Counted from the stretch's first letter, positions 3,459 to 47,445 are shown. The stretch: DNA of 47,464 nucleotides from Candidatus Gastranaerophilales bacterium (GCA_944323955.1 CALUUK010000012.1:1-47464), one strand, 5' to 3'. Numbers and translations: made by a program. The notes: generated by a model from the sequence alone, not told the origin.

Positions 3459-3640
3459 AGGCAATTAGCGCAGTTGACTCTGCCGAGGGGAAGGTGACTA
3501 AATGTCACGTTACCCGAGAGGTAGCATCACATTGATAATTGAATATTTTGGGCGGTTAGCGCAGTTGACTCTGCCGAGGGGAAGGTGACTAAATGTCACG
3601 TTACCCGAGAGGTAGCATCACATTGATAATTGAATATTTT
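3459..3640 (+). repeat. Two tandem 91-bp copies of the tRNA-Val 5' half with a D-arm hairpin
   Basis: Two units (3459-3549 and 3550-3640, period 91 bp) lie directly 5' of the intact tRNA-Val. Each starts like the tRNA (GGGCGGTTAGCGCAGTTG in the second, slightly decayed in the first). Each is then interrupted in the D-loop by about 40 bp holding a hairpin, and resumes with GGTAGC-ATCACATTGA before drifting into AT-rich sequence. The anticodon-arm 3' side, T-arm and 3' acceptor strand are missing, so neither unit can fold as a tRNA. In the first unit CTGCC (3480-3484) can pair with GGTAG (3520-3524), enclosing GTGAC-TAAAT-GTCAC (3494-3508). From the D-stem onward the two copies are essentially identical. 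Confidence 0.9.
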
Positions 3641-3716
3641 GGGCGGTTAGCGCAGTTGGTAGCGCATCACATTGACATTGTGGAGGTCGCTGGTTCGAGT
3701 CCAGTACTGCCCACCA
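3641..3716 (+). tRNA. tRNA-Val (anticodon GAC)
   Basis: A full cloverleaf is visible: acceptor stem GGGCGGT/ACTGCCC with one G-U pair, D-stem GCGC/GCGC, anticodon stem TCACA/TGTGG around loop TTGACAT (anticodon GAC), and T-stem GCTGG/CCAGT around TTCGAGT. The 3' CCA is encoded (3714-3716). GAC reads GUU and GUC valine codons. Two imperfect 5'-half copies precede it in tandem, and a glycosyltransferase gene begins 22 bases after its end. Confidence 0.97.
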
Positions 3717-3738
3717 TTTTTATTTACGGAGTGAATTA

Positions 3739-4671
3739 ATGACAAATTTTAAATTTATACTAACTCATCTGATTTATAAAAGTCTAAAATTTATTAATTA
3801 CTACGCAGGTACAATATATCTGTTAAAACAATATTTATATGTAATTGATAAAATAAAATACCCCTCCCCAACAGAGAAAAACGATACGGATAAAAGTAAT
3901 TATGTTTGGACAATGTGGTGGCAGGGTGAAGTTCCCGAATTGGTCAGTGTTTGTATTTCAAGTATTAAACGATTTTATCCGGATACAATTGTTATAACGG
4001 AAAATAATTTAAAAGATTATGTTGAAATTCCGGACTATATCATAGAAAAAATGAAAAAAAGGCAAATATGTTTGGCTCTTTTTTCCGATATAGTCAGACT
4101 TTGTTTACTTGAAAAATACGGCGGAACATGGATTGATTCGACCTGTTATTTAACAAATAAAATTCCAAATTACATAACTAATTCCGACATCTTTTTATTC
4201 GAGACAAAAAGATGTGAATATTTCGGGTATATAAATTATTTTTACGATTTAATAAGTAGTTTCTTTATATATGCCAAAAAAGATAATTATATTATAAAAG
4301 TTTTAAAAGCATTCCATCTGGAATATTGGAAATATGAGAATAAATCAGCACATTATTTTCTGTTTCACAAGTTTTGTGAACTGGCAAAGAAATATAATAG
4401 TAATTTTAAAGAAGAATGGGATAAAATACCTATTTCCTGCGGTATAAATACAAAAACAATGGCACATGTTTTGAAAAAACCGTTTGACAAAGATATTTAT
4501 GATTATCTGCATAATACAAGTTTTGTGCATAAACTAACCTATAAAAATTTTGACAGCGAAAAAATTCCTAAAGACAGTTTATATTTCTACTTAAAAGAGC
4601 AGGTAACATCAAAGGGATTTCAAATATCTTCTGATAAAAATCAAGTATCTCGGAAGGAAATAAGCCATTAA
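3739..4671 (+). CDS. Capsular polysaccharide-type glycosyltransferase
   Basis: The 310-residue protein resembles the capsular polysaccharide synthesis glycosyltransferase family (DXD-containing, GT32-like). VWTMWWQGEVPELV starts the nucleotide-sugar domain, and FSDIVRLCLLEKYGGTWIDS (about 114-133) is the characteristic helix plus D-x-D-like metal/donor motif. It probably transfers a sugar to a surface polysaccharide at the inner face of the membrane; donor and acceptor are unknown. CGGAG lies eight bases before ATG 3739. The gene's last 63 bases overlap, tail to tail, the end of the flippase gene on the other strand, which suggests the two belong to one polysaccharide function. Confidence 0.85.
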   Translation: MTNFKFILTHLIYKSLKFINYYAGTIYLLKQYLYVIDKIKYPSPTEKNDTDKSNYVWTMWWQGEVPELVSVCISSIKRFYPDTIVITENNLKDYVEIPDYIIEKMKKRQICLALFSDIVRLCLLEKYGGTWIDSTCYLTNKIPNYITNSDIFLFETKRCEYFGYINYFYDLISSFFIYAKKDNYIIKVLKAFHLEYWKYENKSAHYFLFHKFCELAKKYNSNFKEEWDKIPISCGINTKTMAHVLKKPFDKDIYDYLHNTSFVHKLTYKNFDSEKIPKDSLYFYLKEQVTSKGFQISSDKNQVSRKEISH

Positions 4672-5835
4672 TATAAAATAGAATAACAAAATCGCATATA
4701 TACCAAAGCGATAGAGGACAGCCAAACTAACCACCGAGATAATAAATCCTTCAATCTGACAGCGCTGATTAAATTTTTGATTTCCGCTTGCGGTTAAATA
4801 TGTTGCAAGTACCCCGCTGACACCATTCAACAAAGTTATAACGGAAAGAAGCACTAATATCGGATATCCGTTTAAATAATACTCTTTATTGTATATAAGC
4901 AGCAAAAGATTTTTTCCAAACAGAAGCAAGAAAACAACAACTACCGCATTTATGTAGAAAATTACCAACGCACTTTTTTTCATTACTCGGATAACTTCAT
5001 CTTTGGATTTATTTATCATTTCGGGTAAAATTTGCTGGAGCTGCGCTAAGGCAAACAACGAAGGAATGGTAGCTATATTATTGGAGGCAAAAAACAATGC
5101 CGCGGTTTCTTTTGGAAATAATGTTGCAACAACCAGTGAAGGAAGAGAAATCCTTGTCAAAAGAAGCGCAGAAGAAGTCATATACGGAATAATTCTTTTA
5201 TCTATAATTTTTCCTACATTCCTAAATAATTTAAAAAATTTAAAATAATTAATTTTTATGTAAAAAGAACATTGAACAAAGTTAATAACACCAAGTACAA
5301 GATATATAATAAGGTACTTTACAAGCGAAAGTTTCAGTATCAATGCACAAACGGCAATAATAACAGAAACGATGCTGTATAGAATATTAATTATACCGAT
5401 TTGTTTGAATTTCTTAGATGCCTGAAAATAAGGAAGAACAAGAGCAAAAAAAGTTCCGTCAAAGAAGCACTTAACCATTACCAGTGCAAAAACAAAATGG
5501 TCTTCCATAGGAACAAAAGCAGAGACTATCACGTATAAAGCAGTAATCAATACAGCCATTCCGATGAAAAAAGTCTGTTTTATTTTTACCATTTTTGCTT
5601 CATTATTTGCAGAGACCAAAATAAATTCGTTATATCCGAGATTTGCAATCAATAATAAATACGAAGCCAAATTAGCATAACTGGAATACAGACCGTAGTC
5701 ATAAACACTGAGATATCTCGCAATAAAAAAAACACTGAATGCTCCGGCTATTTTTCTTGAATAAAGAGAAACAGCATATAAGTTTGAAGTTATCAGATTC
5801 TTTAAAAATTGCAATATTTGTTTTGTTTTATCCAT
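4609..5835 (-). CDS. Polysaccharide flippase, Wzx/MATE-like membrane protein
   Basis: The 408-residue protein has about 12 hydrophobic segments spread along its length and the look of the oligosaccharide flippase group (polysaccharide biosynthesis family, MOP superfamily), which moves lipid-linked sugar units across the inner membrane. AGAFSVFFIARYLSVYDYGLY near the N-terminus is a typical Wzx opening. The frame stays open upstream through the tRNA at 5904-5975, but I place the start at ATG 5835: homology begins there, and a TATAAT lies six bases before the ATG, so the message may be leaderless. Its 3' end overlaps the convergent glycosyltransferase gene by 63 bp. Confidence 0.85.
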   Translation of the reverse strand: MDKTKQILQFLKNLITSNLYAVSLYSRKIAGAFSVFFIARYLSVYDYGLYSSYANLASYLLLIANLGYNEFILVSANNEAKMVKIKQTFFIGMAVLITALYVIVSAFVPMEDHFVFALVMVKCFFDGTFFALVLPYFQASKKFKQIGIINILYSIVSVIIAVCALILKLSLVKYLIIYLVLGVINFVQCSFYIKINYFKFFKLFRNVGKIIDKRIIPYMTSSALLLTRISLPSLVVATLFPKETAALFFASNNIATIPSLFALAQLQQILPEMINKSKDEVIRVMKKSALVIFYINAVVVVFLLLFGKNLLLLIYNKEYYLNGYPILVLLSVITLLNGVSGVLATYLTASGNQKFNQRCQIEGFIISVVSLAVLYRFGIYAILLFYFILMAYFLPRYLIFIRRYLKSL

Positions 5836-5903
5836 AACGCAATTATACAATAAACAATTTAAGTGCTGAGCGTAAGAAAACAGACAAAATTTGCACAAAA
5901 AAC

Positions 5904-5975
5904 TGGGCCCGGTAGGATTCGAACCTACGACCAAGGGATTATGAGTCCCCTGCGCTACCGCTGCGCCACAAGCCC
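5904..5975 (-). tRNA. tRNA with anticodon CAT (elongator Met or Ile2)
   Basis: On the minus strand a cloverleaf is formed by acceptor GGGCTTG/CGGGCCC, D-stem GCGC/GCGC, anticodon stem GGGGA/TCCCT around CTCATAA, and T-stem GTAGG/CCTAC around TTCGAAT, followed by discriminator A. The 3' CCA is not encoded, unlike the Val tRNA. The anticodon stem lacks the three consecutive G-C pairs of initiator tRNA, so this is elongator tRNA-Met or the lysidine-modified tRNA-Ile2; the sequence alone does not separate them. Two tandem imperfect copies of its 5' half precede it. Confidence 0.93.
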
Positions 5976-6177
5976 ATGTTTTCTTAATTTTCAATGTTCC
6001 AGCTTGCGGTAGCTGCGCTACCTACCTCTCGAAAAACGATACTTAATCGTTTTTCTCGGCACAGTGCCACAAGCCCATGTTTTCTTAATTTTCAATGTTC
6101 CAGCTTGCGGTAGCTGCGCTACCTACCTCTCGAAAAACGATACTTAATCGTTTTTCTCGGCACAGTGCCACAAGCCC
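5976..6177 (-). repeat. Two tandem 101-bp copies of the CAT tRNA 5' half with a D-arm hairpin
   Basis: Read on the minus strand, two identical 101-bp units (6177-6077 and 6076-5976) run straight into the intact tRNA at 5975. Each begins with the tRNA's GGGCTTGTGGC. It then carries an insert with a perfect 10-bp hairpin (arms 6031-6040 and 6046-6055 in the nearer copy, five-base loop), continues with GTAGCGCAG, and departs from the tRNA. A second small hairpin, GGTAGC-GCA-GCTACC, follows. T-arm and 3' acceptor strand are missing. The insert borders, TGCCGAG on one side and CGAGAGGTAG on the other, are the same as in the tRNA-Val copies. Confidence 0.92.
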
Positions 6178-6199
6178 ATGCACTAAATAAAGAATAACA

Positions 6200-7183
6200 T
6201 TAACAATTTTTGTCGTCAAGAAAAATTTCACGGTAATCAGCAAGCATGGCAGCACCGACCGCACCTGAAAAATCACCGAGTTGAGCACGTTCAAATACAA
6301 TTTCACGGGAAGGTACCGCAAGGGAATTTTCTTTTGCAAGTTTGACAGTTTTTTCATAGAAATAATCAATGCCGTTTATAAGTCCGCCGCCAAGAATTAT
6401 TTTAGACGGATTATAAAAATTAATTATTGAAGCAATTCCCAATGACAAATAAAAGCAAGTTTCATCAAGCACATCAATAACGGTTTTATCATTATTTTCC
6501 AGTGCCTTTTTCAACATCGCGGTTTTAATAGGCTTATCTTCTTTCATATAATTTATAATGTCAGAATTTACTCCCCTGTTAAGTTCAGCGCGAATTTTTC
6601 TTTCAATAGCAAGCCTTGACGCATAGGCTTCAAGACAACCTTTTGCACCGCAGCCGCAAAGTCTGCCATTGGGCTCAATAATAATATGACCTATTTCACC
6701 GGCACTGCCGGTGGCGCCATACCTGATTTTTCCGTTTTGAACGATACAAGACCCTACACCTGTACCTGCAAAAATACATACAAAATCTGTTTCTCCCTTA
6801 CCGCTTCCAAAAAGAATCTCGCCTATTGTTGCAACTTCAACATCATTCCCCAAATAAACGGGTTTTGAAAATTCTTTTTCCAAAATTTCCTTTATAGGTA
6901 CATTCTGAAGTCCGATATTCGGTGCATTTATAATTATTCCGTTTTGTCTGTCTGTCTGACCTGCAGCACCCATTCCTATATTTTCAATTTCTGATAATTT
7001 TTTATCAGCGGCAATTATAACCTCTTTAACAGATTTTATTATTTTTTTAATAAGTTTATCACTGCCTTTATCTTTTTTTGTCTTTACTTTTACAAAGCTC
7101 AAGACTTCGCCCGTTTTTTTATCCGCGAGTACCGTTAGTATTTTTGTTCCGCCTAAATCTATTCCGATAGAATAACTATTCAT
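6200..7183 (-). CDS. ROK-family sugar kinase, probable glucokinase
   Basis: The 327-residue protein carries the ROK signature. GIDLGGTKI at the N-terminus is the ATP phosphate-binding loop. GTGVGSCIV and GEIGHIIIEPNGRLCGCGAKGCLEAYAS-type segments (about 141-187) contain the catalytic-side residues, the HxxI motif and the Cys residues (CGCGxxGC) that bind zinc in this family. GGGLI near residue 275 belongs to the second half. It most likely phosphorylates glucose or a related hexose to feed glycolysis, matching pyruvate kinase and the secreted GH13 enzyme in this window; the exact sugar is not certain. AAAGGAATC precedes ATG 7183. The C-terminus lies 22 bp from the tRNA repeat block. Confidence 0.9.
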   Translation of the reverse strand: MNSYSIGIDLGGTKILTVLADKKTGEVLSFVKVKTKKDKGSDKLIKKIIKSVKEVIIAADKKLSEIENIGMGAAGQTDRQNGIIINAPNIGLQNVPIKEILEKEFSKPVYLGNDVEVATIGEILFGSGKGETDFVCIFAGTGVGSCIVQNGKIRYGATGSAGEIGHIIIEPNGRLCGCGAKGCLEAYASRLAIERKIRAELNRGVNSDIINYMKEDKPIKTAMLKKALENNDKTVIDVLDETCFYLSLGIASIINFYNPSKIILGGGLINGIDYFYEKTVKLAKENSLAVPSREIVFERAQLGDFSGAVGAAMLADYREIFLDDKNC

Positions 7184-40810: not shown

Positions 40811-41099
40811 ATTTTTATTATTTACTACAAATTTTTCAATATCAAATACTTATACCAGATAAATCGCTATGCCTCACAGGCATAATAAAGTGTAATATAT
40901 TCATTTAAAAAATTATAAAAAGTAGCGCGTTTCACTCTTCCGAGTAAAACGTGTGTAAAAGAACACATGGTTTGATTATTTGTTCCACATGGTTTGATTA
41001 TTTTGGGCAACATAAAATTTGAAATATTAAATAAATGAGCAAATTTGCAATTTTAAGAATATAAAGTTACTATCATAAAAACAAATTAAAATATATAAG
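40811..41099. other. Intergenic accessory boundary with hairpin and tandem repeat
   Basis: This 289-bp gap between the EamA and csoR genes has no gene I can support. It carries an imperfect hairpin at 40928-40951 (CGTTTCACTC/GAGTAAAACG, one mismatch). Next comes a tandem pair of near-identical 17-22-bp repeats, CACATGGTTTGATTATTT at 40964 and 40986, ending TTTTGGGCA at 41009. A similar arrangement with a different core lies at 47399-47445, and a decayed relative at 43226-43295. Confidence 0.6.
40964..41009 (+). repeat. Two 22-bp-spaced tandem repeats resembling an IS end
   Basis: CACATGGTTTGATTATTT occurs at 40964 and 40986. The second copy runs on to TTTTGGGCA, and the pair is preceded by GTAAAAGAA. 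A pair at 47399-47445 has the same spacing, the same upstream GTAAAAGAA and the same TTTTGGG...CA end. Multiple tandem terminal repeats ending in CA recall the right ends of IS21-type elements. No transposase is nearby, so it would be a solo remnant. Confidence 0.45.
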
Positions 41100-47370: not shown

Positions 47371-47398
47371 ATTATAATTTATATTTCATGTAAAAGAA

Positions 47399-47445
47399 CA
47401 ACCAGTTCCGGAATATTTGACAACCAGTTTCGGAATTTTGGGACA
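47399..47445 (+). repeat. IS-end-like tandem 22-bp repeats
   Basis: CAACCAGTTCCGGAATATTTGA (47399-47420) is followed by a second copy CAACCAGTTTCGGAATTTTGGGACA (47421-47445). Read from the other strand it begins TGTCCCAAAATTCCGAAACTGG, with a second TTCCGGAACTGGTTG. TG/CA ends with multiple terminal repeats are a feature of IS21-type elements. No transposase remains in the window. Confidence 0.5.

Follow-up and report, generated by a model that had tools for sequence, protein, structure and literature searches.

A candidate family of miniature palindromic mobile elements at the tRNA genes of Gastranaerophilales

Two hairpin arrays in front of tRNA genes

The window, a stretch of 47,464 nucleotides from Candidatus Gastranaerophilales bacterium (GCA_944323955.1 CALUUK010000012.1:1-47464), contains two short arrays of a hairpin-forming sequence, here called the core. 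Two cores lie on the plus strand before a tRNA-Val gene (gac), and two lie on the minus strand before a tRNA-Met gene (cat). The tRNA-Val array is a perfect tandem repeat with a period of 91 bp (3465–3658, plus strand). At its outer end, the first 18 nt of tRNA-Val recur as a displaced copy with slight divergence (aGGCaaTTAGCGCAGTTG, 3459–3476), recognized by comparison with positions 3641–3658. The outer 91-bp unit (3477–3567) consists of a core hairpin, the target-like sequence GCATCACATTG, an AT-rich spacer, and a copy of the tRNA-Val 5′ end. Its core (3477–3523) has the order ACTC-TGCCGAG-stem-TAAAT-stem-CGAGAGGTA and was identified both by pattern and by a covariance model (60.4 bits). 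The inner unit (3568–3658) carries the second core (3568–3614; pattern and covariance model), and its final 18 nt form the 5′ end of a complete tRNA-Val, the regenerated target (3641–3716; ARAGORN and Rfam tRNA, 66.8 bits).

The tRNA-Met array, on the minus strand, is a perfect tandem repeat with a period of 101 bp (5965–6180). The complete tRNA-Met, again the regenerated target, occupies 5904–5975 (5903–5976 in ARAGORN, with support from Rfam). The inner unit (5965–6065) is composed of the core, a hairpin (GGTAGCGCAGCTACC), GCAAGC, an AT-rich spacer with TTGAAAATTAAGA, and the tRNA-Met 5′ end GGGCTTGTGGC. The outer unit (6066–6166) has the same sequence according to tandem-repeat analysis. 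Pattern and covariance model both place the third core, with loop TAAGT, at 6023–6065 (65.5 bits) and the fourth at 6124–6166. The array ends in a displaced 11-nt outer fragment of tRNA-Met (GGGCTTGTGGC, 6167–6177), identified from the sequence and from orthologous empty sites. Outside the array is a promoter-like TTGACG-17-TATTCT (6191–6219, minus strand), at the equivalent place to that in relatives with an empty tRNA-Met site. Because the array lies in sense orientation between this promoter and the tRNA, it is probably transcribed.

The exact pattern TGCCGAG-N(10–36)-CGAGAGGTAG occurs four times in the window (3481–3524 and 3572–3615 on the plus strand, 6022–6061 and 6123–6162 on the minus strand) and is absent from 100 dinucleotide shuffles; the core coordinates given above include the ACT(C/G) edge. 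Eight exact cores are present in the whole genome, at tRNA-Val, tRNA-Met, and tRNA-Pro (ggg, tgg, and cgg). The first-pass annotation of this DNA had described common borders, ACTC or ACTG followed by TGCCGAG on the 5′ side and CGAGAGGTAG on the 3′ side, and these are found at all four cores. The different stems and five-base loops that it noted are also present, with TAAAT at tRNA-Val, TAAGT at tRNA-Met, and unlike stems in the two sets. The range it gave, 3480–6064, covers three of the cores, but the fourth falls outside. Between the two core-bearing tRNAs (3739–5848) are convergent glycosyltransferase-like and flippase-like genes, a pair that may have been acquired horizontally. Two other short tandem repeats, each of about two copies of 22 bp, occur at 40965–41013 and 47398–47440, the second at the contig end.

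Architecture and covariation of the repeat unit

The constant part of the family is a hairpin core of 41–47 nt with fixed feet, ACTSTGCCGA and GAGAGGTA, a freely changing stem, and a conserved purine internal loop near the core foot. The complete unit is non-coding and measures ~84–250 bp. Read toward the tRNA, it starts with the displaced outer tRNA fragment (5′ end into the D arm), followed by ACT(C/G), TGCCGAG, the variable stem-loop, and CGAGAGGTA. A short stretch that resembles the target just past the junction comes next and is often followed by its inverse. Then come a spacer and the repeated tRNA end, which is continuous with the complete gene. A spacer like TTGAAAAYTRAATA was found in 47 of 70 sense units, compared with 2 of 37 antisense units and 55 of 2140 shuffles; a terminator-like hairpin is frequent in the spacers of antisense units at tRNA 3′ ends. 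A universal three-way junction formed from both arms of the unit is not claimed, since pairing of the arms exceeds that in shuffles only slightly (22 of 154 at p ≤ 0.05).

At three loci, L411 (G031), L426 (G002), and L118 (175–270), one core stands immediately behind the GGTAG that forms the foot of a second core, an arrangement suggestive of insertion into it. The presence of a core inside another unit in G031 and G002 suggests that the core is the minimal unit. At the tRNA-Met of G039 (L346, 1522–1993), the units are 242 bp long and include a long conserved insert of apparently structured sequence without an Rfam match.

Covariation in the stem is strong. In an alignment of 84 distinct copies that was fitted to the tested structure itself, 97% of the stem cells pair, 168 cells show double-sided changes (at most 10 in slid controls), and the covariation score is 0.394 (at most 0.070 in slid controls). 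The MAFFT alignment A1 gives the same picture, with 55 double-change cells and at most 8 in slid controls. The stems of 83 distinct hairpins comprise 894 cells, of which 831 are Watson-Crick pairs, and substitutions are almost solely double changes from one Watson-Crick pair to another; G·T occurs in 10 cells and A·C in 7. Wobble on one strand is normally tolerated in RNA helices; the similar numbers of G·T and A·C therefore lean toward DNA or a strand-symmetric correction. Two stem classes have recurrent mismatches, a G·G and tandem GA/GA, which indicates that the stems are not simply perfected.

Distribution, genomic contexts, and orthologous sites

A covariance model (R1) built from 24 distinct cores matched 40 of the 41 genomes of the window's genus and 216 of the 241 genomes of the order, nearly all in the window's own family, with a small number in two further families. 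Of 292 genomes sampled from the phylum, 123 had a match at E ≤ 1e-4, and among the matches listed all were of the order and no core lay outside Gastranaerophilales. The genomes are one per species and mostly fragmented, and arrays are cut at contig ends, so that copy counts are lower bounds; match counts per genome in the order and phylum searches are also to be read as at least the number given. The core is also present in the Candidatus Gastranaerophilales bacterium record CANPXC010000150.1. A reversed-pattern control gave no match in 58 genomes. Phage records contained no core match. Among IMG/VR viral contigs the strict form had no match, and a looser form had two, which are candidate members only; a short pattern used in a search of this type hit mostly GC-rich contigs, as chance matches. 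No description of this repeat was found in the open-access literature, the scope of our literature search. The first-pass annotation had proposed a covariance search and had favored one mobile element family over chance; the many further copies, very often adjoining tRNAs and with strong compensatory change, support that view.

The core was placed in 200 distinct contexts, taken from fetched loci that are mostly the best-scoring ones and thus non-random, so the tRNA-adjacent share is no genome-wide rate. There are 82 sense contexts before a tRNA (Met, Pro, Val, Thr, some Leu, and others) and 46 antisense contexts after the 3′ end of a tRNA or tmRNA (Leu-caa, Arg, Glu, tmRNA, His, Phe, and others). 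The remaining 72 have no tRNA within 450 nt, and many of them are contig ends or GC-rich intergenic repeats. In sense and antisense contexts alike, the core is directed toward the interior of the gene, and the outer tRNA end is duplicated. Placeable junctions lie 6–8, 11–12, or 17–20 nt from the 5′ end or 11–15 nt from the 3′ end; a single Pro row with a junction at 77 is a placement failure. The offsets cluster by tRNA type, yet vary even inside one type. As the outer 6–20 nt of the tRNA are duplicated wherever the junction could be placed, an intact gene remains. Comparison of the two tRNA ends suggests that ~5–7 bp of the target at the junction appear to be replaced in the displaced copy.

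Copies are also found dispersed away from tRNAs. In G072, near-identical copies with common flanks (CCCTCCCC..core..GGGTGGGG) are scattered in intergenic DNA. At loci L377–L391 of this genome there are at least 12 near-identical cores with common GC-rich flanks, and the subfamily looks recently active. Within the window's genus, a genome's hairpins at its various tRNAs show no excess similarity over expectation (8.2 versus 8.7 edits, with values this low in 397 of 2000 permutations), which gives no support in the genus for recent copying between tRNA sites; concerted evolution of hairpins inside a genome was accordingly dismissed there. Loci L012 and L030 have a core within an open frame, at or immediately before the start of a C5-cytosine-methylase-like gene (RFFDAFSGIGGFKL). 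Short non-coding cassettes of another type begin with GGAGTGTCTTGCTCGYTCGCG or a similar sequence, contain no core, and occupy the T-arm junction of tRNA-Leu and tRNA-Arg that antisense core units use. They occur in tandem with core units at L361 (minus view, ~1698–1887), L362 (~1625–1830), and L387 (minus view, ~735–925). The use of one T-arm junction by unrelated short cassettes suggests that the junction itself is a hot spot.

Orthologous sites with and without units could be compared at two tRNA genes. A glucokinase-like (ROK) gene adjoining tRNA-Met is conserved in the genus, and the tRNA-Met site beside it is empty in G058, G025, G060, G023, and G011 and filled in 16 other genomes. Compared with the empty site of G011, G020 has an insert of 105 bp, and only GGGCTTGTGGC, 11 nt of the tRNA, is duplicated. 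The promoter of G020 remains outside the array, and the spacer is no copy of the native leader. The empty sites have no scar and do not group together phylogenetically; in a tree of the neighboring protein, they require at least three changes on well-supported branches, and G011 is nested among filled relatives sharing one unit type. These counts fit gain or loss alike, and five of the unit-type labels were assigned by hand from sequence. Hairpins that differ in length and sequence occur at one and the same orthologous site. At tRNA-Arg, an intact core is present in G002, G004, and G019; the other genomes are without one, some with unit-like remnants.

A putative mobile element and alternative explanations

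The reading that we consider probable is that the cores belong to a family of miniature, non-coding, palindromic mobile elements, confined to Gastranaerophilales among the genomes searched, which split and restore tRNA genes. Mobility is argued for by the occurrence of exact cores far above chance, the order-wide spread, the covariation, the orientation rule, and the duplicated tRNA end, and further by the empty and filled tRNA-Met and tRNA-Arg sites, the dispersed G072 copies, and the core inside another unit. At tRNA and tmRNA genes, the contexts found most often, the element lies between a displaced outer fragment (6–20 nt of the 5′ end in sense units, 11–15 nt of the 3′ end in antisense units) and the complete gene, whose end the unit supplies; gene function is thus kept by the split-and-restore logic of genomic islands in tRNA genes. 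Tandem arrays may expand and contract, and recombination between the two copies of the tRNA end could remove units scarlessly. The hairpin may act as DNA, either extruded or single-stranded, and would be moved in trans by a recombinase or by processing at the replication fork.

Two known classes of short palindromic repeats invite comparison. REP/REPIN sequences are short palindromes that go with RAYT transposases and have a GTAG tag at one palindrome end, whereas Rickettsia palindromic elements (RPE) have CGTC ends, insert in frame in protein genes, and have no known transposase (PMC3733652). Like REP/REPIN, the present family includes dispersed short non-coding palindromes, some of them in GC-rich intergenic repeats, but it differs in its strong preference for tRNA ends, in its tandem units with a copied tRNA end, and in core-rich genomes that mostly lack Y1. 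GTAG occurs in the family solely as part of the right foot of sense-type copies, where the GGTAG after the stem coincides with the D-loop sequence of the tRNA; many antisense or dispersed copies have GGTAA, GGTG, or GGGA. The likeness to RPE lies in being palindromic, able to sit in genes, and without a known transposase, and the difference in a preference for tRNA and tmRNA ends among the contexts found. The CGTC foot is absent from the aligned cores. RPE-like in-frame insertion was set aside: of 26 non-tRNA loci, L012 and L030 alone run in frame into the methylase gene, and the start codon there is unsure. Given the absence of RAYT from most core-rich genomes tested, the missing CGTC tag, and the tRNA preference, which is no defining trait of either class, we file the family with the small palindromic mobile repeats, as a member of neither REP nor RPE.

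Candidate enzymes were sought in 12 core-bearing genomes. RAYT (Y1, PF01797) was found in five and is absent from G000 (the window's genome), G025, G072, G212, G148, G202, and G039. Reverse transcriptase (RVT_1, PF00078) was found in three and the IS110 transposase (PF01548) in one. A RAYT/REP mover, retrotransposition, and a bridge-RNA IS110 satellite were rejected, since the respective enzyme is missing from most of the core-rich genomes tested. Tyrosine recombinases are present in every genome tested, which makes their presence or absence uninformative, and such enzymes are possible movers.

Integron attC sites have conserved feet and a hairpin whose sequence is variable while its structure is kept. 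The fixed feet and structure-conserved hairpin of the core resemble this arrangement by analogy, but the arrays inspected have no gene cassettes, and the foot sequences differ from those generally known for attC. We hold tentatively, as a possibility, that the core is a structure-recognized recombination site of attC-like logic but unrelated origin, at which a host-encoded or trans-acting recombinase would insert tiny non-coding cassettes at tRNA and tmRNA ends throughout the order, with arrays built and shed and the tRNA always regenerated.

It is rather doubtful that the units are functional RNAs, that is, structures in pre-tRNA leaders that control tRNA processing or expression and are kept by selection on pairing. 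The position of the tRNA-Met array between promoter and tRNA fits such a role, as does the common AT-rich spacer of sense units directly before the tRNA. The core folds better than shuffles as RNA (z about −3). At the fourth foot pair, 69 rows have U-A and 10 have U·G, and the foot pairs as TGCC/GGUA with RNA energies only. The TGCC/GGTA pairing noted in the first pass thus forms in the RNA fold; it includes a G-U pair and is absent from the DNA fold. Against an RNA role, wobble pairs are no commoner than A·C among the 894 stem cells, 46 of the 128 tRNA-adjacent contexts are antisense to the tRNA, some of them past its terminator, and many copies are distant from any tRNA, including those in GC-rich intergenic repeats. 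Close relatives have empty sites, and the arms of the unit pair weakly. Rfam 15 found nothing but tRNA at gathering score in the window arrays and six related loci, with a few chance matches below. The initial suggestion of selection on RNA structure is not established by these data.

An origin of the units from tyrosine-integrase islands, as att scars or reduced remnants, is unlikely. Such islands enter tRNA and tmRNA genes, where the target is split and then restored, with a displaced fragment at the far end (PMC4383910), and the core units share both the displaced fragment and the regenerated tRNA. The other short cassettes at the same T-arm junction are also in keeping with this origin. 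Two loci have an island-like content. In L046 (2900–4950, tRNA-Glu), two core units 1.8 kb apart flank a partial tRNA-Glu, a membrane protein gene, and two small neighboring genes resembling a toxin-antitoxin pair, so that the locus resembles a small island with the core at its end. In L023 (G025:C2:223208-223804 and 224150-224290), a tyrosine integrase gene lies beside a tRNA-fMet cut at the anticodon, with two cores upstream. In contrast to islands, core units are only ~84–250 bp long without genes or integrase, enter either the 5′ or the 3′ end at variable junctions, and appear to have target bases near the junction replaced. The 41–47 nt core is conserved over many different tRNAs and is also found outside tRNAs without a duplicated tRNA end, and the phage records and, for the strict form, the viral contigs gave no match. 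An integrase island beside the arrays was also looked for in eight array neighborhoods, which, judged from reading frames, contain ordinary-looking genes and no mobile-element genes or integrase islands.

An origin without mobility, in which palindrome-driven slippage and template switching would duplicate sequence locally at tRNA genes and palindrome correction would keep the stems perfect, accommodates the identical tandem units of the window arrays, the double Watson-Crick changes without wobble intermediates, and the failure of RAYT, reverse transcriptase, and IS110 as transposase candidates, but it is very improbable, since the same feet at unrelated tRNAs, tmRNA, and intergenic repeats throughout the order could not arise by local slippage and the dispersed G072 copies have common flanks.

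If the family does consist of mobile elements, a common gut lineage harbors, in most of its members, an uncatalogued mobile repeat with a preference for tRNA genes, and this repeat persists in these genes, which are among the most conserved, by restoring them. It would be among the smallest split-and-restore elements described, and a natural experiment on keeping hairpin structure, not sequence, in mobile DNA. Because many contig ends coincide with arrays, these probably break Gastranaerophilales assemblies at tRNA genes. In the window's own genome, two contigs end in the same tRNA-Pro core array (G000:C3:31-77 and G000:C10:80175-80221); they are probably neighbors, with the assembly broken by the array.
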